Positions 8,371 through 20,183 of a stretch of 64,000 nt of DNA are shown here, in pieces (the first letter of the stretch is position 1; each line of letters opens with the position of its first letter). The position numbers and the translations under genes are program-made. Below the pieces are notes generated by a model. The model was given only the letters and a program-made list of their open reading frames with translations. It was not told the origin of the DNA and did not search any database. Source of the DNA: Fibrobacterota bacterium (GTDB lineage: Bacteria > Fibrobacterota > Fibrobacteria > UBA11236); assembly GCA_028287505.1 (NCBI GenBank), contig JAQBPN010000008.1, positions 1 through 64,000 of the forward strand, given 5' to 3'.

Positions 8371-11300
8371 CTAGGCGGACTGGGTCCCCGTCGCGGCGCC
8401 CTTTTCCGAAGCCTGGGCCGCGGCTTTCCCGGCGGCCGCGTCCTTTTCGGCCGAACCGTCCAGCACTTCCCTCACCTTGGCGGCTATGGCGGCCGGGCTG
8501 AAGGGTTTCCCGATGAAGGATGCCTGGGCCGTGTAGACTCCATGGCGGATGATGGCGTCTTCCGTGTACCCGGACATGAACAGCACCTTGGTATCCGGCC
8601 GCGCTTCCCGCAGCTTTTCCGCCAACACGCGTCCGCTGATGCCGCCCATCACCACGTCGGTCAGCAGCAGGTGGATATGCACGCCCTTGGCCTGCTTCTC
8701 CACCAGCTCCAGCGCCTGCTCGCCTCCCGGCGCTTCCAGCACTTTGTAGCCGCCCACTTCCAGCACGTCCCGCACCAGGCGGCGCACGGCGTCCTCGTCC
8801 TCCACCAGCAGGATGGTTTCCGTGCCCCCAAGGGATCGCAGGGCGCGCTCGCGCAAGCGGGTCCGTTCCGGCCTTTCCAGTTTGGAAGCCGCGGGCAGGT
8901 AGATGGAAAAGACCGTCCCTTTGTCGGGCTCGCTTTCCACCGTGATGCTTCCGTTGGCCTGTTTGATCGCCCCGTACACCGTGGACAACCCCAATCCGGT
9001 TCCCTTGTCCTTGGACTTGGTGGTGAAGAAAGGTTCGAACAGACGCGACTTGGTCTCCTCGTCCATTCCCGTGCCCGTGTCCACCACGCTGAGCAGCGCA
9101 TATTGACCGGGGGGGACTTCCGGAAAGGCCGCGCCGTGGTCATCCTCCTTGAACGTGCGGCTGCCGGTGATGAGCCGCAATTCGCCGCCGCCGGGCATGG
9201 CATCGCGCGCGTTCAGGACCAGGTTCAGGATCACCTGTTCCAACTGATTGGGATCCGCCACCACCTTGGGGACATTCGGATCCAGGCGGGATTTGAACTC
9301 GATGTTCTCGCCGATCAGGCGGCGCAGCATGGTCTCCATCCCCGAGACCACGAGATTCACGTCCAGGACCCGCGGGGCCAGAACCTGTTTGCGGCTGAAG
9401 GAAAGCAACTGGCTGGTCAGGGCCGCCGCGCGCCCGCCGGCTTTGCGGATCTCCTCGAGATGGTTTCGCCGCGCGTCGTCCTTGGGAAAGGTCATGAGCA
9501 GCAGATCGCTGAAACCGTTGATGGCGGTGAGCAGGTTGTTGAAATCGTGCGCTACGCCGCCGGCCAGCCTGCCCACGGCCTCCATCTTCTGGGACTGGCG
9601 CAGCTTCTCTTCACTGGCCTTGAGCGCCTCTTCCGCCCGCTTGCGGTCATTGATGTTGCGCACGATGCCTTCGAAATAGGCGATGCCGCCCCCGGCGCGC
9701 AGGATGGGCTGGGCGTTGACCTCGACCCATACCGGGGTCCCGTCCCTGCGCGGCAACTCCACGGAAAACGTATCCCCGCCGTCCGAAATCCCATGGAGGT
9801 CTCCGCCCGCGGGCAGCAGGCGCGGCTGCATGGTGCCCACCAGTTGTCCGCGATCCGCGTAACCCAGGAGGGACACCAGGGCGGGGTTGGCGTCCATCAT
9901 GGCGCCGTCCGGCCCGCAGCGGAAGATGCCGTCCAGGGAACGCTCGAACAGGGTCCGGTATTTCTCTTCCGATCGCCGCACGTCCCGGTAGAGGATCACG
10001 GAACCCAGGGCGTTGGAAATGAGCGAAGCGATGTCCTTGAACATGGTGAAGTCATCACCCTTCCACGGGGCGGCTTCCGGCGAGCGCAACAGGCAGAGGA
10101 TCCAGGGCCGCCCCAATTGCGGCCGCACGGTAATGACCTTGGCGGAGCCCACGCCCAGGGCATCCCTCCAATACCCGGCGTTCGGCAAAGGGAGATCGCG
10201 GCCGAATACGAGCGGATCGTCCGTGGCCTTGCAGGCGAGCGCGATGGCCCCGAATCCCGCTTCGGCGGGGATGGTTTCGATGCCGGCCGAAGCGGCCTGA
10301 GCGGCCCGGCGGGGATGATCGGCGGAAAAGGGGACGCGGAATACGGAATCCTCGGAATCCGAGAGATTGACCAGCCAGGCGCGTTCGCAATCGAATACGT
10401 CCAAAAGCCTGGCCATGGCCGCGGGGAGGGCGCTTTCCACGTCCAGGGTCCGCTCTATGGCGACGGAGATCCGGTTCATGCCCTCGAGGTATCGCACATG
10501 GTCGGCGACGGACTCCTGGGCGCGCCGCACTTCGGTCATGTCCTGCGCGATGCTGACCACCATTTCCACTTTGCCATCCGCGGAGAAAATGGGGGTGGAC
10601 TTCACCACAACCCAACGCTCCGTGCCGCTTTGTTTCAAGCGGAAGCGGAACATGGTGGGCGGAAAGTGCTTCCCCTGGGCCGCCACCCTTCCGGGCCTGC
10701 GCTCCGCCGGGACCATCCCGCCGGCTTCGTCCATCAGGACCGCGCGCGAGGATAGGGACGCCGCGCCGTCCTTGAGAAGCTCTTCCACGGATCCGTATTC
10801 CAGGATGCGGGCGGCCGCCCCGTTGGCGTAAACGAGCCGGCCTCCATCGCCCAGTTCCGTGACGAAAATCGCATCATCGACACCCGAGAGGACGATTTCC
10901 AGCTGATTCCGCGATTTCTGGATTTCCGTCTGCGCCTGCTTCATGGCGGTGATGTCGTTGAAAACATTGATGACCAGGCGGACCTTCCCCTCATCATCGA
11001 ATACGGGGGTGGCGTTGACCAAGGACCAACGTTCCTCGCCGGTCGCCTTGATACGGTAACAGAGGATCCGGGCGGAGACGGAGCGGCCCAGCAAAGCCAG
11101 GCGTCCCGGAATCTCTTCCAGGGACAGCGGCCTGAGGTCCTCGTCGAGCACCTCGAACCGCTCCATGATGCGCCGCGGATCCGTTTGCATCAGGGATTCC
11201 GCGTCCGGGAAAGCCAGGATGCGCGCGGCCGCATCATTGGCGTACACGAGGTTTCCCTTGGTATCCTGCGCCGTGCAGGCGCTTTCCATGGTGCGGAGCA

Positions 11301-12288
11301 TGACGTACAGTTCATCACGGCTGCGCTGCAATTCCATTTCCGCAGTCTTGATCCCGGTCACGTCCTGGTTGACGGTGATGGCGAGACGGACCTTCCCTTG
11401 CGCGTCGAAAAGGGGCGTGGCCTTGACGAAGGTCCACTTGGTCTCCCCGGTGGCCTTGATTCGGAGGCAGACCAGTTCGCCCGTGACCGCCTCACCGCGC
11501 AGGGCGCGCCGGCTGGGCAGACGGTCTTCCGGATAGGGCCGCAGGAATTCATCCAGCAATTCGAGGCGGGTGGAAATGTCCTCGGGTTTGGAGTCCATCA
11601 GTTCGCCGGTCTCGCGATAGCCCAGCAGGGTGGCGGCGGCAGCGTTTGCGAAAACGGTTTTACCTTCGCGATTGAAGACCAGGATTGGCGTGTCCAGGGT
11701 CTTGAGGATGCTGTCTATTTCATTGCGGAAGATGGAAAGCGCTTCCTCGGACCTGCCGGGTCCGCGCAAGGCGGCATCGTGGCCGCGACCGGCCGGATGT
11801 CCCGCCAGCGCATCCCTAAGGGTGGCGGCGAAGTCCCTGAGGGTTTCCGCCTCGGCGGCGGTCCATTGGCGGGGCACGCCATCCCAGAGAGCGAGCAGGC
11901 CCAGGATGCGGCCCTCTCCGTCTTCCACCGGGGCGCCGAGAAAAGCGGGCAAAAGATCCGTTGGAAATCCCCCCTGGGAAGTTCCCGTTTTCGCGGCCGC
12001 GGGGGTAACCGCCCCGGTTACCCCGAATGCCGTCTCCAGGAGCGATGGCCAATCCAGGGGCCACTCGGCCAATCCGGAAATTGAATCCGGCAATCCAAGG
12101 GTTCCCCGCGGCATGAATCCCTTTCCGCCCAAGAGCAGAAAGGCCGCCGCGGGAGCACGCAGGCTTCCCGAGGCCAGGCGAAGAAGCCTATGGATTTCCT
12201 CCGGAACGGGCCCATCGGACATACCGGTGGCTGCAAGGGCTTGCAACCTTTCCGGGTCCGCGATCCTGATCGAAAAGTCTGAAAGCAT
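8371..12288 (-). CDS. Multi-PAS/GAF hybrid histidine kinase
   Basis: A 1305-residue cytosolic hybrid sensor kinase with no membrane segment. Domains in order: GAF-like (about 20-165), three PAS domains (about 190-310, 325-445, 450-575), a second GAF (about 595-745), a fourth PAS (about 755-875), HisKA with H914 in V-A-H-D-F-N-N-L-L, an HATPase domain with N and G boxes (about 990-1110), and a C-terminal receiver with phospho-acceptor D1211 (L-L-T-D-V-V-M). The first three PAS domains are very alike, each followed by a K-A-T-G-E-x-x-W-type segment, so they probably arose by internal duplication. It probably senses soluble ligands or redox and feeds its own receiver. No partner regulator is adjacent; folE2 converges from the other side. 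Confidence 0.92.
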   Translation of the reverse strand: MLSDFSIRIADPERLQALAATGMSDGPVPEEIHRLLRLASGSLRAPAAAFLLLGGKGFMPRGTLGLPDSISGLAEWPLDWPSLLETAFGVTGAVTPAAAKTGTSQGGFPTDLLPAFLGAPVEDGEGRILGLLALWDGVPRQWTAAEAETLRDFAATLRDALAGHPAGRGHDAALRGPGRSEEALSIFRNEIDSILKTLDTPILVFNREGKTVFANAAAATLLGYRETGELMDSKPEDISTRLELLDEFLRPYPEDRLPSRRALRGEAVTGELVCLRIKATGETKWTFVKATPLFDAQGKVRLAITVNQDVTGIKTAEMELQRSRDELYVMLRTMESACTAQDTKGNLVYANDAAARILAFPDAESLMQTDPRRIMERFEVLDEDLRPLSLEEIPGRLALLGRSVSARILCYRIKATGEERWSLVNATPVFDDEGKVRLVINVFNDITAMKQAQTEIQKSRNQLEIVLSGVDDAIFVTELGDGGRLVYANGAAARILEYGSVEELLKDGAASLSSRAVLMDEAGGMVPAERRPGRVAAQGKHFPPTMFRFRLKQSGTERWVVVKSTPIFSADGKVEMVVSIAQDMTEVRRAQESVADHVRYLEGMNRISVAIERTLDVESALPAAMARLLDVFDCERAWLVNLSDSEDSVFRVPFSADHPRRAAQAASAGIETIPAEAGFGAIALACKATDDPLVFGRDLPLPNAGYWRDALGVGSAKVITVRPQLGRPWILCLLRSPEAAPWKGDDFTMFKDIASLISNALGSVILYRDVRRSEEKYRTLFERSLDGIFRCGPDGAMMDANPALVSLLGYADRGQLVGTMQPRLLPAGGDLHGISDGGDTFSVELPRRDGTPVWVEVNAQPILRAGGGIAYFEGIVRNINDRKRAEEALKASEEKLRQSQKMEAVGRLAGGVAHDFNNLLTAINGFSDLLLMTFPKDDARRNHLEEIRKAGGRAAALTSQLLSFSRKQVLAPRVLDVNLVVSGMETMLRRLIGENIEFKSRLDPNVPKVVADPNQLEQVILNLVLNARDAMPGGGELRLITGSRTFKEDDHGAAFPEVPPGQYALLSVVDTGTGMDEETKSRLFEPFFTTKSKDKGTGLGLSTVYGAIKQANGSITVESEPDKGTVFSIYLPAASKLERPERTRLRERALRSLGGTETILLVEDEDAVRRLVRDVLEVGGYKVLEAPGGEQALELVEKQAKGVHIHLLLTDVVMGGISGRVLAEKLREARPDTKVLFMSGYTEDAIIRHGVYTAQASFIGKPFSPAAIAAKVREVLDGSAEKDAAAGKAAAQASEKGAATGTQSA

Positions 12289-12520
12289 GGGTTCCCGGGA
12301 GCCCCGAAACGGCCGGTTCCGGGCTCAAAACAATATATGCAATTACCCCCGGCGCCATGGAAAAAAATGGCAAAGCTTACGGTTCTGGAGCACCCGCAAA
12401 CCGGGCCCGAGTTCCCGTTTCCTAGACAAAGGGTCCCGCCCTTAATATCTTCTGGGCCGTCTTGCAGGAAGCGCTCTGGTCAATCCAGGGATGTGGAAAA
12501 TCACCAAAGGCGATTCTCCT

Positions 12521-12785
12521 AAATTGAAGGTGCTTGGCGCCTTCAATCGCATAACGAGGAATTCCGTGCGAATCGGAAGCGAGCTCGTCGCTGTAAGCGG
12601 TACGAAACTTCCAAGGGGATTTCCGGTCCTACCGGAAATTTCCCGACCACTGGCCGCCCCGGAAAGGGAAGGCCGGGAAGGGGAAGGAGTAGGCTGAAGG
12701 ACGTGGCCGGAACCGGAGCTTCCAAAAAGCTTCGCGACCCCCGCCTCCTTCGAGACCCGCGAGCCAGAAGACTCACCTGTGAGAG
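12521..12785 (+). promoter_or_regulatory. Cobalamin riboswitch
   Basis: The leader of the btuB-like gene carries the cobalamin-riboswitch core. There is a GAAGGTGC...GGCGCCTTC hairpin at the start, a G-T-G-C-G-A-A-T core segment near 12565, C-T-G-T-A-A-G-C-G-G near 12591, G-A-C-C-A-C-T-G-G near 12646, and the near-invariant 3' element GAGCCAGAAGACTCACC at 12761-12777. Order and spacing fit the family, with a large GC-rich peripheral insert between the last two. It should bind a cobalamin and switch the terminator that follows. The exact 5' edge is an estimate. Confidence 0.88.
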
Positions 12786-12813
12786 ATCTGATTGGCCTTC
12801 GAAGCCGAGGTCG

Positions 12814-12861
12814 ACGGAACCACGCACCGGATTTCCCGTGCGTCTCCGTTTTCCTTTTTTT
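12814..12861 (+). terminator. Riboswitch-controlled intrinsic terminator
   Basis: A stem built from CGGA..ACGCAC and GTGCGT..TCCG is followed by TTTTCCTTTTTTT (12849-12861). It sits between the riboswitch aptamer and the ribosome-binding site of the btuB-like gene, 76 bases before the start codon. This is the expected place for a transcriptional expression platform that stops transcription when cobalamin is bound. Confidence 0.8.
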
Positions 12862-12937
12862 GCGCTGCGAAGGCATGTCCTCTCACCGAGGGGCGGCCGG
12901 CGAGATCCCGGAAGCCTCCGAAGGAGTTCCGGGCACG

Positions 12938-15037
12938 ATGCCGCATCCGCGGACCTGCCTTCATGCGCTTTCCGCTCAGCGGCCCCCCATCGGGAGCCCG
13001 CGTTGGGCCCCGCTGCGCGCCCTTTTCGCCTGCGCCCTGCTCGCCTTCACCCTGGGCCGGGGAGAAGAACGGAACGACACTCTGGAGCTCAAGCCTTCCA
13101 AGGCGGAAAAGCCGGTGCCTCCGCCTACCTCCGCCGCCAAGGTCGTCATCGTTCCCACCGATGTGGATCGGCAGTTGGGCAACCTGGGGGACATGCTCCA
13201 GCGCGCCGCGGGCCTGCACGTGGTGCGGACCGGCGGGATAGGCGATTACCTGGGGGTTTCCGTCTGGGGCTCTTCCGAATACCAGGTTAACGTGTACGTT
13301 AACGGCGTGCTCCGTAACCAGGCCAACGACCCTTCCCTGTTCCTGGGCGACTGGGACATGTCCCGGGTGGAGCGCATCGAGGTATACAAGGGCCTGGCGC
13401 CGGACGATCTGCCGGGCTCCCCCATGGGCGGCGCCATCAACATCATCACCCGGGATCATGCCGGCGGGCCGGCGTTGCGCGGGGCCCTGGGAGCCGGATC
13501 TTTCGGGAGCCTGCGCGCCAACGGCTCGGTGGAATACAAAAAGGAAAACTGGCGCGGCCGGTTCGAAGCCGCCCGCAACCAGGCCGACGGGGATTTCCCC
13601 TATTACGACGACAACGGGACCGAGTTCGCGCCCGGACGGCATCCGGACGGCGCGCCCCGCCTCTCGGCGGATGATCTGACGCGCAAAATCCGGCGCAACA
13701 ACGCCCACGCCTTTTCCGAACTCGCCGCGGATCTGTCCTTCAACCCCACGCCGGCCACGGAGACGGGCGCCCAGGTGGACGTTTCCGATCTGCACAAGCA
13801 GATCCCCGCGCCGGGCCCCAACATCGATTCCACCGTGACGGTTTCGGCCTTCCGCGAATCCCGGCGCGTTTTCCTGCGGGGATACGGCAAATGGTCCGGG
13901 ACGGACGCGGAGGGCTCCTTCGATCTTTCCGGAACCTACCTGGGCGACGCCTACGTGGACACGTCCAAGGGCGGCGGGTCGGTGGGGATCGGTTATGACG
14001 ACGATTTCAACGCGTACACGGATCTGTTGGCCGTGCTTTGGGGCAGGACCAAGGTAACCGGGGGGTTGACCCTGTCCGCGCTGGTCTCCTATGGGATATC
14101 CGGATACGTATACAGCGACAGGATCGCGGACCGGGAATATCCCGGGCTGTACCGGTATGCCGGAGAAGGGAAGCTCACGCCCACCTACGTGCTGGGCCGC
14201 CACAGCCTGCAGGCCATCCTGGCCGCCAACCTGACGATGGAAGAACAATACGGGGCCGCCGGCTCTCCGTTCCGGACCGCGGCTTCCGGCGAGGAGTGGA
14301 GCGATCATTGGTCCCTGCGCTTGGGATACCAATACCGGCTGCGCGAGGGACTCTGGTTTTCCGCCCAAGCGGGCGACGCCTATCGCGTGCCCACGTTCCT
14401 GGAACGGTTCGGGGACAGGGGCACGGTATTGGCCAACCCCGGCCTGCGTCCGGAGGGAGGCGCGAATGCATCGCTGGGAGCGCATGCGGAGTCGCGCCGG
14501 TATTCCCAAGACATCCAGGCTTTCGCCACCGAGGGCAGGCGCATCATCACCCTGGAGCAGAACTCCCAATTCGTCCTGGTATTCCGTAACACCGGAGCTA
14601 CCCGGATCCTGGGCCTGGAATCCCGGACCGCCGCCGCCCCCCGCCCATGGGCCCGCACGGAACTGGATTTGACCCTGATGCAGGCCGCGGACGTTTCCGG
14701 CGGCTCCGGATCCGGAGCCTACAAACTCATCCCCTACCGGCCGACCACGCAGGCCTCCCTGCGGCAAACCCTTACCCGCCGCGCCTGGACTCTGGCGGCC
14801 ACGGGATATTACCAAGGCCTGGCATACCCCAACCCGTCCAACCGGGCCAGCCTGTTCGATTCCTACAGCCATAACACGGAATGGCAATCGCGCTGCGATC
14901 TGGATCTGTCCTGGCGCGTAAAGCATCTCCTGCTCGCCGCGGGCGCGCACAATCTTTTCGACCAGCGCAATTTCGACTTCTTCAACTTCCCGCTGCCCGG
15001 CCTGAACTTCGCCTTCACCCTGCAGGCGGATTATTGA
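12938..15037 (+). CDS. btuB: BtuB-like TonB-dependent outer-membrane cobalamin receptor
   Basis: 699-residue TonB-dependent receptor, by context a corrinoid importer. After a signal peptide comes N-D-T-L-E-L-K, close to the BtuB TonB box (D-T-L-V-V). Then follow a plug domain with V-Y-V-N-G-V-L near residue 120, V-E-R-I-E-V-Y-K-G and G-G-A-I-N-I-I-T-R, and a long beta-barrel ending in an aromatic residue (A-D-Y). I placed the start at 12938 because AAGGAG lies at 12921-12926, eleven bases upstream. Upstream in-frame ATGs fall inside the riboswitch/terminator region and are not credible. The cobalamin riboswitch makes cobalamin the best substrate guess. The BtuG-like lipoprotein gene follows 59 bases on. 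Confidence 0.88.
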   Translation: MPHPRTCLHALSAQRPPIGSPRWAPLRALFACALLAFTLGRGEERNDTLELKPSKAEKPVPPPTSAAKVVIVPTDVDRQLGNLGDMLQRAAGLHVVRTGGIGDYLGVSVWGSSEYQVNVYVNGVLRNQANDPSLFLGDWDMSRVERIEVYKGLAPDDLPGSPMGGAINIITRDHAGGPALRGALGAGSFGSLRANGSVEYKKENWRGRFEAARNQADGDFPYYDDNGTEFAPGRHPDGAPRLSADDLTRKIRRNNAHAFSELAADLSFNPTPATETGAQVDVSDLHKQIPAPGPNIDSTVTVSAFRESRRVFLRGYGKWSGTDAEGSFDLSGTYLGDAYVDTSKGGGSVGIGYDDDFNAYTDLLAVLWGRTKVTGGLTLSALVSYGISGYVYSDRIADREYPGLYRYAGEGKLTPTYVLGRHSLQAILAANLTMEEQYGAAGSPFRTAASGEEWSDHWSLRLGYQYRLREGLWFSAQAGDAYRVPTFLERFGDRGTVLANPGLRPEGGANASLGAHAESRRYSQDIQAFATEGRRIITLEQNSQFVLVFRNTGATRILGLESRTAAAPRPWARTELDLTLMQAADVSGGSGSGAYKLIPYRPTTQASLRQTLTRRAWTLAATGYYQGLAYPNPSNRASLFDSYSHNTEWQSRCDLDLSWRVKHLLLAAGAHNLFDQRNFDFFNFPLPGLNFAFTLQADY

Positions 15038-15096
15038 GGCCGCGCGGCAGGCAAAGCGAATCCATGAAACCAATACCCGAACCGAAGGAATCCATC

Positions 15097-16254
15097 ATGA
15101 CCGACAACACATCCACCGTCCGAACGCGCGGCTCCGCCGCTCCCGGAAAATCCCGGCTTTCGAAAAAGTCCGCCGCATGGGCCGGAGCGGCCCTGCTCTG
15201 CCTGAGCGCGTGCACGACCTCGGACGAAAAGGACCCGGCGCCGGACACTGAAAAAGGCATTCTCTTCGCCTTGACCTCGGATTACAAGACGGGCAGTTAC
15301 TCCGTCGTCGGCATCGACAGCGCTTTCATCGCGAACCAGATCGCCCCCATCCATTCGGACGCGGTGGTGCGATACCTGGGAGGCAACGACATCTTCATCA
15401 TCAACCGGCTCCCCCGGAACAATCTGCAGATCGTGGACCGGCACAATCTGCACACCGTGCTGGAAGTCGGGTTCCCCTCGCTTTCCAATCCCCAGGACGT
15501 GGAACTCAATGACAGCCTGCTCTACGTGGCATTCTACGGCACCGACAAGATCGGCATCTACCATCAGGGCGAAGGCGCTCCCAAGGGCGAGATCGATCTG
15601 TCCGCCTATGCGGACTCCTCGGACAAGCTTCCGGAGACCTCGGATCTGCTCTTCGTGGGCGACACTCTCTACGCTTTGACCCAGAATCTGGATACCAAGA
15701 ACGGCTTCGTGCCTTTGACGGCGCACCTGCTCAAGATCGATATCACCACCCGGAAGGTGACCCAGGCATTGGAGCTTCCCTACGGCAATCCCGCGGGCAT
15801 GACCTACGACCCGGCCTCTGGCAAGCTCTACATCCCATGCCGCGGTCTTTACTCCAATCCCGATTACAGCGTCAAAGCCGACGGGGGCATCGTCGTCGTC
15901 GATCTGTCCAAGTTCACGATCGGGGATACCCTGGCCACGGAGGCCGACCTGGGAGGCAACGTGAACCAAGCCATCCTCTACAAAGGGAGCCTGTACATGG
16001 ACGTCGGCGCGGATGCGGCGGAGAAGATTGTCGCCATCTCCGTGGCCGATGGCATGGCCCGGGACATCGTGGACCTCAATCCCTACTCCGTGGGAGGAAT
16101 GGCCATCGACGCCAAGACTTCCACCCTTTACCTGGGGGACCGGAAAAAGGGCGCGGAACGGCTGCGCATCTTCGACGCCGATACGTTCCAGGAAAAAGAG
16201 GGCTCCAAGCTCGATTTGGGCATGCCCCCGGTCGACATGGTTGTGGTCCGCTGA
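15097..16254 (+). CDS. Beta-propeller surface lipoprotein, BtuG-like
   Basis: 385-residue lipoprotein: a basic N-terminus, a hydrophobic stretch and a clear lipobox L-S-A-C, followed by an acidic linker. The rest consists of repeated four-stranded units typical of YncE/SMP-30-like propellers, for example L-L-Y-V-A-F-Y-G, G-K-L-Y-I-P-C-R-G and S-T-L-Y-L-G-D-R, about seven in all. In Bacteroides, BtuG is a seven-bladed propeller lipoprotein that captures cobalamin on the cell surface and pairs with BtuB. Fold, lipid anchor and position behind a riboswitch-controlled btuB all fit that role. Homology to BtuG itself needs a search. The start follows AAGGA at 15085-15089. Confidence 0.75.
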   Translation: MTDNTSTVRTRGSAAPGKSRLSKKSAAWAGAALLCLSACTTSDEKDPAPDTEKGILFALTSDYKTGSYSVVGIDSAFIANQIAPIHSDAVVRYLGGNDIFIINRLPRNNLQIVDRHNLHTVLEVGFPSLSNPQDVELNDSLLYVAFYGTDKIGIYHQGEGAPKGEIDLSAYADSSDKLPETSDLLFVGDTLYALTQNLDTKNGFVPLTAHLLKIDITTRKVTQALELPYGNPAGMTYDPASGKLYIPCRGLYSNPDYSVKADGGIVVVDLSKFTIGDTLATEADLGGNVNQAILYKGSLYMDVGADAAEKIVAISVADGMARDIVDLNPYSVGGMAIDAKTSTLYLGDRKKGAERLRIFDADTFQEKEGSKLDLGMPPVDMVVVR

Positions 16255-16261
16255 TTCCCCT

Positions 16262-16305
16262 GACCCGGCCCCGGACCCACAGGTCCCGGGGCCGGGTCGT
16301 TTTCC
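16262..16305 (+). terminator. Strong intrinsic terminator of the btuB-btuG-like operon
   Basis: A stem of about 16 base pairs (GACCCGGCCCCG... paired with ...CGGGGCCGGGTC, one bulged G) with a five-base loop is followed by GTTTTCCTT. It lies seven bases after the lipoprotein stop codon and closes the unit. Confidence 0.85.
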
Positions 16306-16365: not shown

Positions 16366-18198
16366 ATGCTCCGCTTTTCCTGGGAATGGGATTTACTCGC
16401 CGGCCCCGAGGCTCTGTGGCCCCTGGTCTCGGATTCCGATCGCTTCAACCGCGACACCGGCGTTCCCAAGCTGGTCCGCAAGGGCGAGGATCCGGAGCGG
16501 GTGATTTCCTTCCGCAGATTCGGCTTTCTGGTATCCTGGACCGAGGATCCCTTCGAATGGTCGAGCCCGCGCCGCTTCGGAGTATTGCGCCACTATCTGA
16601 CCGGACCCTTGCGGGAGATGAAGGTTTCCGTCCACCTGGATGCGCTGCCCTCCGGCGGCACGCGCCTCCGCTATGAAACCAGCCTCAAGCCGCGCCATGC
16701 GTTGCTGGCATGGCCGCTCGCCTTGGGCTTCCGCCTGGCAATCAAACGCCGCTTCACCTCCGTATTCCGTTCCTACGACCGCGCCGCCCTGCGATCCGCA
16801 GCGCCCATCACCGCTCCGGCCGAGCGCACCTTCGCGCCTTCGGGCAAGGCCCGGTTGGCCGCGCGCTTCAAGGACCTGATGGGGGCGGGCGCGGAACCGC
16901 TCCTGGCCGCGCGCCTCCGCCTGCTGTTGGAAGAATCCGACGACGCCGACCTGGTCCGCATCCGTCCTTACGTGCTGGCCGCCCGGTGGCAGGCCTCCCG
17001 CAGGGACACCCTGGAGATATGCCTGCTGGCCGCCCGGGCCGGACTGCTCGATTTCCGTTGGGACCTGCTGTGCCCGTCCTGCCGCGGGGCCAAATTCACG
17101 GCCTCCCGCTTGCGGGACGTCAAAGGCCCCATCCACTGCAGCTCCTGCAATATCGATTTCCGCGCGGCCTTCGACCGTTCCGTGGAAGTCACCTTCGCGG
17201 CCAACCGCTCCATCCGTCCGGCCGAAGCGGCCGAGTATTGCGTGGGCAGTCCGCAGCGCACCCCGCACATCTATTTCAGGCATACCCTGGAACCGCGCAC
17301 CGCCACCACTCTGGATCTTTCCCTGGCTCCCGGCAGGTACCGCCTGCGTTCCCCCTCCTTCGAAGGCGCCTGGCACATCCGGGTGGCCGGCCCGGACAAA
17401 GACGGGGAAGGAGGAGAGACCCACGTCCATGCGGAACCTCCCGTCCACGGATGGCCCAAGGGAGAAGCCGACTGGAACGCGAGGCCGCGCCTGTCCCTGG
17501 CCAACCCCACCGATCGCCGCTTGGTCTTCGCCCTGGAGCGCAATGCCTGGGCGGATGATGCGGCCACGGCCGCGGAAGTGACCGCCTTGCAAAGCTTCCG
17601 GGATCTGTTCGCGGACGAAGCCCTGCGGCCCGGTGAGGAGATCTCGGTGGGCAGTCTGGCTTTCCTGTTCACGGATCTGCGCGGCTCCACGCGATTGTAC
17701 CGGGACGCCGGGGACGCCAAAGCGTTCGGGTTGGTGATGGAGCACTTCGACATCCTGAAATCGGTCATCGCCGAAGAAGGCGGCGGCGTGGTGAAAACCA
17801 TCGGCGACGCCGTGATGGCGGTATTCCCGCGGCCCCAGGCCGCCGTGCGCGCGGGCCTGGAGGCCCATCGCCGCCTGAAGGAATCGCAACCGTCCCTGGT
17901 CCTCAAGGCCGGCGTCCACTGCGGTTCGTGCATCGCCGTCAACCAGAACGATCGGCTGGATTACTTCGGTTCCACCCTGAATCTGTCCGCGCGCCTGCTG
18001 GGCTTCTGCGCCGGCGGCGACCTGGTGGTCACCCGCGACGTGGGCGAAGATCCGGAAACGGCCGCCTGGTTGGCGGAAAACGCCGCGGCCTGCACGGTCG
18101 AGGAACTCTCGGCCCCCATTCGCGGATTCGAACAGGATGCCTTCGCCTTGATGCGGATCACTCCGGCGGAATCCGCGGTCCCCATCCATACCCTTTGA
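16366..18198 (+). CDS. SRPBCC / zinc-ribbon / class III adenylate cyclase fusion
   Basis: 610 residues. The N-terminal 150 or so residues look like an SRPBCC (START-like) lipid- or ligand-binding fold (W-E-W-D-L-L-A-G-P-E start, central basic strands). The middle (about 170-400) resembles DUF5939-type regions of bacterial cyclases. It includes a four-cysteine ribbon with C236-x2-C239 and C258-x2-C261, which probably binds zinc. The C-terminal domain is a class III nucleotide cyclase: metal-binding D437 in F-T-D-L-R-G-S-T and D481 in G-D-A-V-M-A are present, as is the dimer-interface N-x-S-A-R-L. It should make cAMP (or cGMP) in the cytoplasm, gated by the N-terminal domains. No Shine-Dalgarno is obvious. 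Confidence 0.85.
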   Translation: MLRFSWEWDLLAGPEALWPLVSDSDRFNRDTGVPKLVRKGEDPERVISFRRFGFLVSWTEDPFEWSSPRRFGVLRHYLTGPLREMKVSVHLDALPSGGTRLRYETSLKPRHALLAWPLALGFRLAIKRRFTSVFRSYDRAALRSAAPITAPAERTFAPSGKARLAARFKDLMGAGAEPLLAARLRLLLEESDDADLVRIRPYVLAARWQASRRDTLEICLLAARAGLLDFRWDLLCPSCRGAKFTASRLRDVKGPIHCSSCNIDFRAAFDRSVEVTFAANRSIRPAEAAEYCVGSPQRTPHIYFRHTLEPRTATTLDLSLAPGRYRLRSPSFEGAWHIRVAGPDKDGEGGETHVHAEPPVHGWPKGEADWNARPRLSLANPTDRRLVFALERNAWADDAATAAEVTALQSFRDLFADEALRPGEEISVGSLAFLFTDLRGSTRLYRDAGDAKAFGLVMEHFDILKSVIAEEGGGVVKTIGDAVMAVFPRPQAAVRAGLEAHRRLKESQPSLVLKAGVHCGSCIAVNQNDRLDYFGSTLNLSARLLGFCAGGDLVVTRDVGEDPETAAWLAENAAACTVEELSAPIRGFEQDAFALMRITPAESAVPIHTL

Positions 18199-18368: not shown

Positions 18369-20183
18369 ATGGGGAACCGCGCTCTGCGCAACGTTCTTAG
18401 GTCTACCGTCCTCACCGCCTTCTACCTCTTTTGCCCAAAAACTACGCATGCCGCCGAGGATTATTCCGCGTGGCCCTACAAGACGGACGTGGTTCTGAAC
18501 ACCTCCGCGACCGGCGCGAATGTGGCCTCCACGGTCAACAACTTCCCCGTATTGGTGCGCCTCACCTCCTCCAACTTTCCCTTTTCCCAGGCCCTGGGAA
18601 ACGGCCGGGACATCCGCTTCTCCAAAGCGGACGGCTCTCCGCTCGCCTATGAGATAGAGCGGTGGGATTCCACGCGCGCCCTCGCGGAAATCTGGGTGAA
18701 GGTCGACGTCATCGCCGGGAACACGGCGGGCCAGATCGTGAAAATGCTTTGGGGAAATCCTTCCGCGCCCGACAGCTCCAATGCCGGAGCGGTTTTCCGC
18801 GCGGCGGACAATTTCGTGGCCGCATGGCACCTGAACGGATCGGGAACGGCTTCCAGGCCCAATGCGGTGTCGGGAGGCAATGCCGCCGTACCCGTGGCTT
18901 ACGACGGAGATGAGAACAGGACCGGCATGATTGCGGGAGCGGACAGCCTGGACGGCGCGGCTGCGGGCGACTACCTGGACGTGGGCGACGGTTATTCCGA
19001 GTTCACCGCGGGCTTCACCTATTCCGTCTGGGTCTACCCCACTGCGATGAAGCGATATTCACATGTGCTCGACCTGGGGAACGGCATCGGGAGCGACAAT
19101 ATCATCGTGAACCGGGTGGATACCAGCAACGATCTGGGATTCCACAATTGGAACGGCACGACCGCTTATGCAAAGCAGGTCGCCAATCAATGGGCCCTGA
19201 ACCAATGGCAATATATCACCGTGACCATGGCGGGCAGGAACGTGCGCATGTATAAGAACGGGGCCCAGATCCTGGCGGATACCATGCCGGGCGCCATTAC
19301 CGGCGTGGCGCGCACCACCAACTTCCTGGGAAAATCGAACTGGACCCTGGACGAATATTTCCAGGGCAAGATCGATGAACCCGAACTGTCCAAGACGGCG
19401 CGCAGCGCGGACTGGATCAAGCTGGCCTACCAGAACCAGCGCTCGGCGCAAACCCTGGCCACCGTCCTCAAGCCCACTTTGTGCGCCGCCAAAATCGCCC
19501 TGCCGGCCGATACGACCATCGCGGAAGGCGAGACCCTGACCCTGGAGGCCACGGTCGAATGCGCCACCGATTTCTCCTGGTCCGTGGTCTCGGGCCCCGC
19601 TCCCCGCATCCTGGATCCGGAGACGAAGTCCCTGGTGGTGCGTATTCCCCGCGTGCAGGCGGATACCGCCATGGTCTACCGCCTGACGGCCAACTATGCG
19701 GACTCCGCGCGCGTCCGTGACGTACGCGTTACCATCAGGGAAGCCATTCCGGATCCCGCGTTCACCATGCCGGCCCCCGGCACCTGGAGCGGCAAGGACT
19801 CCCTGGCGTACCGGCCCGTCATTTCCAATCTCGCCGCCATCAAGGCCAGCCGGGACTCCGTCCTGCACTGGGCGTGGTCCTTCACCGGCCCCGCCGTGGA
19901 AACCGGCTCCCTCCCCGACGGCGTAATGCTCATGGGCGCCGAATCCGACGGCAAACTGCAAATCCGCCTGTGCCTGGACAACGGCTCCTTGCCCGTCTGC
20001 AAGTCCGCGGACCTCAACGTATCGGCCGCCACCGCCACGCTCGATTCCCGGGCGGATGGGGAAACGGGCCGGTTACGACACGGCCAGGGCACCGTAGACT
20101 GGGGCCGCGACGCCATGGGGCGCGCTTCCACTCCGGTCGATCCGCGCTTCCGCAATTGGATTCCGCGCTTCCGCGAAAAATAA
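18369..20183 (+). CDS. Secreted DUF2341-LamG surface protein with shared C-terminal module
   Basis: 604 residues with a signal peptide ending T-H-A. A DUF2341-like domain (about 35-140) contains the typical F-P-V-L-V-R-L, D-I-R-F and Y-E-I-E-R-W-D pieces. A LamG/concanavalin-like domain (about 150-355) carries T-Y-S-V-W-V-Y-P and N-G-A-Q-I. Residues about 370-562 form a module found in three other proteins of this window, with V-S-G-P-A-P-R-I-L-D-P, I-P-D-P and L-C-L-D-N-G-S-L-P-V-C. DUF2341-LamG proteins are extracellular and often sugar-binding or adhesive; no catalytic site is seen. A close paralogue follows 111 bases downstream. The start has no clear Shine-Dalgarno, so it is provisional. 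Confidence 0.82.
   Translation: MGNRALRNVLRSTVLTAFYLFCPKTTHAAEDYSAWPYKTDVVLNTSATGANVASTVNNFPVLVRLTSSNFPFSQALGNGRDIRFSKADGSPLAYEIERWDSTRALAEIWVKVDVIAGNTAGQIVKMLWGNPSAPDSSNAGAVFRAADNFVAAWHLNGSGTASRPNAVSGGNAAVPVAYDGDENRTGMIAGADSLDGAAAGDYLDVGDGYSEFTAGFTYSVWVYPTAMKRYSHVLDLGNGIGSDNIIVNRVDTSNDLGFHNWNGTTAYAKQVANQWALNQWQYITVTMAGRNVRMYKNGAQILADTMPGAITGVARTTNFLGKSNWTLDEYFQGKIDEPELSKTARSADWIKLAYQNQRSAQTLATVLKPTLCAAKIALPADTTIAEGETLTLEATVECATDFSWSVVSGPAPRILDPETKSLVVRIPRVQADTAMVYRLTANYADSARVRDVRVTIREAIPDPAFTMPAPGTWSGKDSLAYRPVISNLAAIKASRDSVLHWAWSFTGPAVETGSLPDGVMLMGAESDGKLQIRLCLDNGSLPVCKSADLNVSAATATLDSRADGETGRLRHGQGTVDWGRDAMGRASTPVDPRFRNWIPRFREK

Follow-up and report, generated by a model that had tools for sequence, protein, structure and literature searches.

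Known B12 uptake systems and the Fibrobacterota locus

The BtuB2G2, BtuB1G1 and BtuB3G3 systems of Bacteroides thetaiotaomicron are alike in having a cobalamin riboswitch, BtuB and then a propeller lipoprotein. The BtuG trait has been described as exclusive to Bacteroidetes (PMC6143338, PMC10404256), and the survey of PMC6143338 covered human gut genomes by means of BlastP with E 1e-10. BtuB from E. coli is also a riboswitch-controlled TonB-dependent B12 transporter, although its system works without a propeller lid, unlike the unit described below. The XusAB pair of Bacteroides likewise consists of a TonB-dependent transporter and a propeller lipoprotein cap, and its substrate is an iron-siderophore (xenosiderophore). 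Proteins of the YncE and YVTN type (3vgz, 1l0q) are beta-propellers too, with repeats similar to those of the propeller described below.

The window analysed here, a stretch of DNA of 64,000 nucleotides from a Fibrobacterota genome, contains the following features.

12511-12794, + strand: cobalamin riboswitch aptamer, RF00174
12807-12861, + strand: terminator-like hairpin (12807-12856) and T7 run (12855-12861), a possible transcriptional off-switch
12907-12933, + strand: hairpin CCCGGAAGCCTCCGAAGGAGTTCCGGG over the Shine-Dalgarno AGGAG (12922-12926), -15.2 kcal/mol
12938-15037, + strand: BtuB-type TonB-dependent transporter, 699 aa, ATG start, Plug domain PF07715
15097-16254, + strand: BtuG-like beta-propeller lipoprotein, 385 aa, lipobox LSA|C, Cys39
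~16261-16304, + strand: intrinsic terminator closing the unit, a GC-rich hairpin (~16261-16299) and then GTTTTCC

The preliminary description, made from the sequence alone, had proposed a complete cobalamin-controlled unit, and each of its parts, namely the aptamer, the leader hairpin with its T run, BtuB, the propeller lipoprotein and the end hairpin, was located. With cmscan, the aptamer scored 61.2 bits, well over the gathering score of 31.5 (E 1.1e-12), and was found to begin about 10 nt upstream of where it had been placed. Its alignment to RF00174 spans the full model (1-189), with the conserved core present and two long peripheral stem insertions. It is the single match in the window and the sole match in the 6.07 Mb assembly (98.7% complete genome). 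The hairpin that closes the unit folds at -37.1 kcal/mol, with a z of -5.62 versus shuffles, in agreement with the end terminator that had been proposed.

As for the surroundings, a hybrid histidine kinase of 1305 aa, which combines several PAS domains with GAF, HisKA, HATPase and receiver domains, is encoded on the minus strand (8371-12288) and diverges from the unit. Directly 3' of the unit lies the gene for a protein of 610 aa that carries DUF5939 together with a class III guanylate/adenylate cyclase domain (16366-18198, + strand), and further on that for a protein of 604 aa containing DUF2341 and a domain of LamG-like lectin fold (18369-20183).

Control by the leader RNA

A switch terminator had been proposed between the aptamer and the btuB start codon, and a hairpin of -24.0 kcal/mol followed by TTTTTGCG does occupy this position (12807-12856). 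The hairpin at 12807-12861 was not among the sites given by a simple consensus terminator scan, whose terminator-like sites were no more numerous than in shuffles. When leaders from the same genus were compared, the hairpin recurred; its U-rich tail was shorter in G001, G002 and G003, whereas such a tail was not found in G004 and G005. Most Fibrobacteraceae have the start codon no more than about 60 nt from the aptamer end, which leaves little or no space for a terminator. Moreover, the Shine-Dalgarno AGGAG is covered by the second leader hairpin, with a pairing probability of 0.76 in the local fold, and this hairpin is identical in G002 and has variant forms in G004 and G001. The consensus that RNAalifold derived from seven leaders of the genus was poor, and the long-range pairings seen by eye are not put forward as supported by covariation.

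Because the U-run is not present in all relatives, the spacing in Fibrobacteraceae is short and the Shine-Dalgarno is held in a hairpin, the switching mechanism that we infer, and favour with low confidence, is translational control by hiding of the ribosome-binding site, termination being possible in this lineage. That transcription termination at 12807-12861 acts in place of ribosome-site hiding is a tentative alternative, which bears on regulation only and is separate from the question of the proteins. The stable hairpin with its T7 run and the U-rich tails of three relatives speak for termination, while the two relatives without such a tail, the scant terminator space in most Fibrobacteraceae and the Shine-Dalgarno hairpin seen here and in three relatives make it somewhat improbable. 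The proposed switch terminator thus exists as a hairpin with a T7 run, but some close relatives lack the U-run, and it is probably not a conserved control element.

In Fibrobacter loci such as L035, L041 and L089, the aptamer stops a few bases 5' of btuB. Loci of this type repeatedly have a sequence like GATGCGAANGACATC around the start codon, and this sequence could fold into a small hairpin over the ATG.

The transporter groups with BtuB

The first in-frame start codon of the transporter reading frame is GTG 12779, but an AGGAG is present 11 nt 5' of ATG 12938, and this ATG was taken as the start. Compared with PDB, the transporter family profile gave as best match BtuB1 of B. thetaiotaomicron (8blw_A, E 1.2e-43) over the full length. 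In the Foldseek ranking, BtuB from E. coli and BtuB3 from B. thetaiotaomicron lead, and XusA is found among, not above, the BtuB chains. Taken as a single sequence, the transporter reached 71 bits against the TIGR01779 equivalog, far short of the cut-off of 599.7. By profile and by fold, it groups with B12 transporters, in accordance with the BtuB assignment first made from the sequence and with its plug domain.

The aptamer, btuB and the propeller gene are linked across the phylum

The suggestion that related genomes might carry btuB next to a propeller lipoprotein gene was followed up in the class and in the phylum. A single-sequence search with the propeller found it in 41 of 61 class genomes, each best match lying near an aptamer. 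When the DNA flanking the aptamers was searched with profiles, each of the 61 genomes proved to have a propeller behind an aptamer; as these class-level profiles derive from frames close to aptamers, the count tells what adjoins aptamers and is not that of a blind search. In 59 of the 61, the aptamer, the transporter and the propeller form one unit. The propeller gene of the other two (G045 and G057) directly follows a short aptamer of its own, and in G045 btuB lies behind a second aptamer. Genome-wide, the propeller family profile found members in 163 of the 168 genomes of the phylum. The order aptamer, BtuB, propeller was also observed at all 14 loci examined from other classes, which were drawn from genomes with the best propeller and an aptamer on the same contig. 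Three Bacteroidales loci used as positive controls all showed aptamer, BtuB and BtuG in this order. This linkage is the strongest evidence obtained.

Two further observations were made on these genomes. In G167, from outside the class, the cobalamin aptamer and btuB lie about 3 kb apart, with other sequence between them (L167, 329-3481). In other Fibrobacteraceae (L118, L119, L120), weak and short RF00174 matches lie 5' of frames resembling MetE, the B12-independent methionine synthase.

The propeller lipoprotein resembles BtuG in its predicted fold

The lipoprotein is encoded in a single copy in the genome, and the only named relative found, a Fibrobacteria MAG, is 66% identical across the whole propeller. 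Searches of PDB, Pfam and NCBIfam with the single sequence returned nothing useful, the Pfam and NCBIfam matches being sub-threshold, and BLASTP against Phocaeicola BtuG detected zero similarity. The relationships of the propeller emerged solely from a 57-member family profile and from the fold. With the profile, BtuG chains in PDB were weak matches (E 0.004-0.01) and came behind the archaeal YVTN surface protein 1l0q; this rank, the lack of pairwise similarity to BtuG and the readiness with which beta-propellers are confused with one another count against a BtuBG-type reading. Profile-profile comparison of the family with Bacteroidales BtuG gave 97.9%. Moreover, 6 of the 57 members matched the Pfam family DUF5074 (best E 9e-7), which real Bacteroidales BtuG proteins also match. 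Judged from sequence, the relation to BtuG is remote.

The AlphaFold2 model is a beta-propeller (pLDDT 94, pTM 0.92), and Foldseek placed Bacteroides BtuG chains at ranks 1-14 of its 1928 PDB matches, with a best E of 1.6e-16 and a TM of 0.73-0.83 by either length. The structures of BtuG2, BtuG3 and 3dsm, a homologue from B. uniformis, superpose on the model with TM values of about this range; the compared proteins come from different phyla and are 12-15% identical in structural alignment. Rank 15 was 1l0q (TM 0.69/0.62) and rank 16 BtuG1, followed by XusB and by YncE (TM about 0.61/0.65). The likeness to BtuG noted in the preliminary description thus holds at the level of the predicted fold, which groups with BtuG ahead of YVTN and YncE. 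Neither outcome that would have spoken against that description, a lack of RF00174 matches or a grouping of the propeller with unrelated SMP-30/YVTN proteins, was observed.

Does the propeller face the outside of the cell? Among 61 family members, 47 have a strict lipobox and most others have one recognised by eye. At least two acidic residues in the ten after the lipid-anchored Cys were found in 42 of the 47, a count for which Fibrobacterota offer no defined export signal as yardstick. A canonical signal of the Bacteroidota type was not demonstrated, a point of difference from BtuG of B. thetaiotaomicron and one that counts against a BtuBG-type reading. The propeller could instead belong to the B12 regulon while facing the periplasm as a lipoprotein, acting for instance as a scaffold or carrier, and BtuB would then work by itself at the surface, as it does in E. 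coli. Export of lipoproteins to the surface is not an established trait of Fibrobacterota, which leaves room for such an arrangement; yet the fold is specific for BtuG, whose known role is that of an extracellular lid, and the propeller keeps a fixed adjacency to btuB. We consider the periplasmic arrangement unlikely. It is very improbable that the protein is a generic YVTN/YncE-type propeller left behind btuB by history and serving another function: the top rank of 1l0q in the sequence-profile search and the sub-threshold Pfam and NCBIfam matches agree with this idea, but the BtuG chains stand above 1l0q and YncE by fold, the linkage is class-wide and two genomes have the propeller under its own cobalamin aptamer, and the idea was dropped. 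A siderophore-type pair like XusAB, to which the presence of XusA and XusB among the fold matches might point, was discarded as scarcely credible, since a cobalamin aptamer is present in all class genomes, XusB ranks below BtuG and XusA does not rank above the BtuB chains.

A probable BtuBG-type uptake unit and the B12 economy of the host

The reading that we retain, with a probability of roughly 0.8, is that of a BtuBG-type, cobalamin-repressed outer-membrane B12 uptake unit. Since the genome belongs to Fibrobacterota, synteny, regulation and predicted fold support such a unit outside Bacteroidota, as the preliminary description had suggested. From the BtuBG papers (PMC6143338, PMC10404256), we infer by analogy that the propeller would bind corrinoid, would be exposed at the surface and would form a complex with BtuB. 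Under cobalamin limitation, synthesis of BtuB and the propeller lipoprotein would be permitted by the leader RNA. The propeller, as a lipid-anchored lid like Bacteroides BtuG, would catch corrinoid and hand it to BtuB, and TonB-driven transport would deliver it to a BtuFCD importer whose genes lie at another site in the genome. Once cobalamin is bound, the aptamer would fold and expression would be turned off, most likely via ribosome-site hiding and possibly with termination as well.

The host genome encodes a cobalamin-dependent MetH activation domain, and no CbiC was found in this 98.7% complete genome. One FecCD permease is encoded on another contig with btuD-like and btuF-like neighbours; btuFCD is thus unlinked to the unit, which, together with the two genomes whose propeller aptamer lies apart from btuB, differs from BtuBG in B. 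thetaiotaomicron. The host BtuF shares 28% identity with a BtuF from Prevotella whose gene lies beside a btuG. The presence of MetH and btuFCD and the absence of CbiC give the profile of an obligate cobalamin importer.

Implications for lid-type B12 uptake

Fibrobacterota include rumen cellulose degraders. An open-access literature search found no paper that names BtuG together with Fibrobacter. Because BLASTP detects no similarity to BtuG here, the BlastP survey of PMC6143338 would be blind to the Fibrobacterota family, and our results are in this respect consistent with the published statements of exclusivity. Lid-type B12 uptake nevertheless does not seem to be confined to Bacteroidota, and a phylum-wide BtuBG-like unit in Fibrobacterota would overturn its exclusivity to Bacteroidetes. 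We see about an even chance that lid-capped TonB-dependent B12 transport is ancestral in Fibrobacterota, perhaps from a common ancestor with Bacteroidota, in which case Fibrobacterota would also possess a surface-lipoprotein route. The Fibrobacterota propellers are a family far diverged from BtuG and would be useful for defining the corrinoid site. Finally, a BtuBG-like unit, if true, bears on whether Fibrobacterota export lipoproteins to the cell surface.
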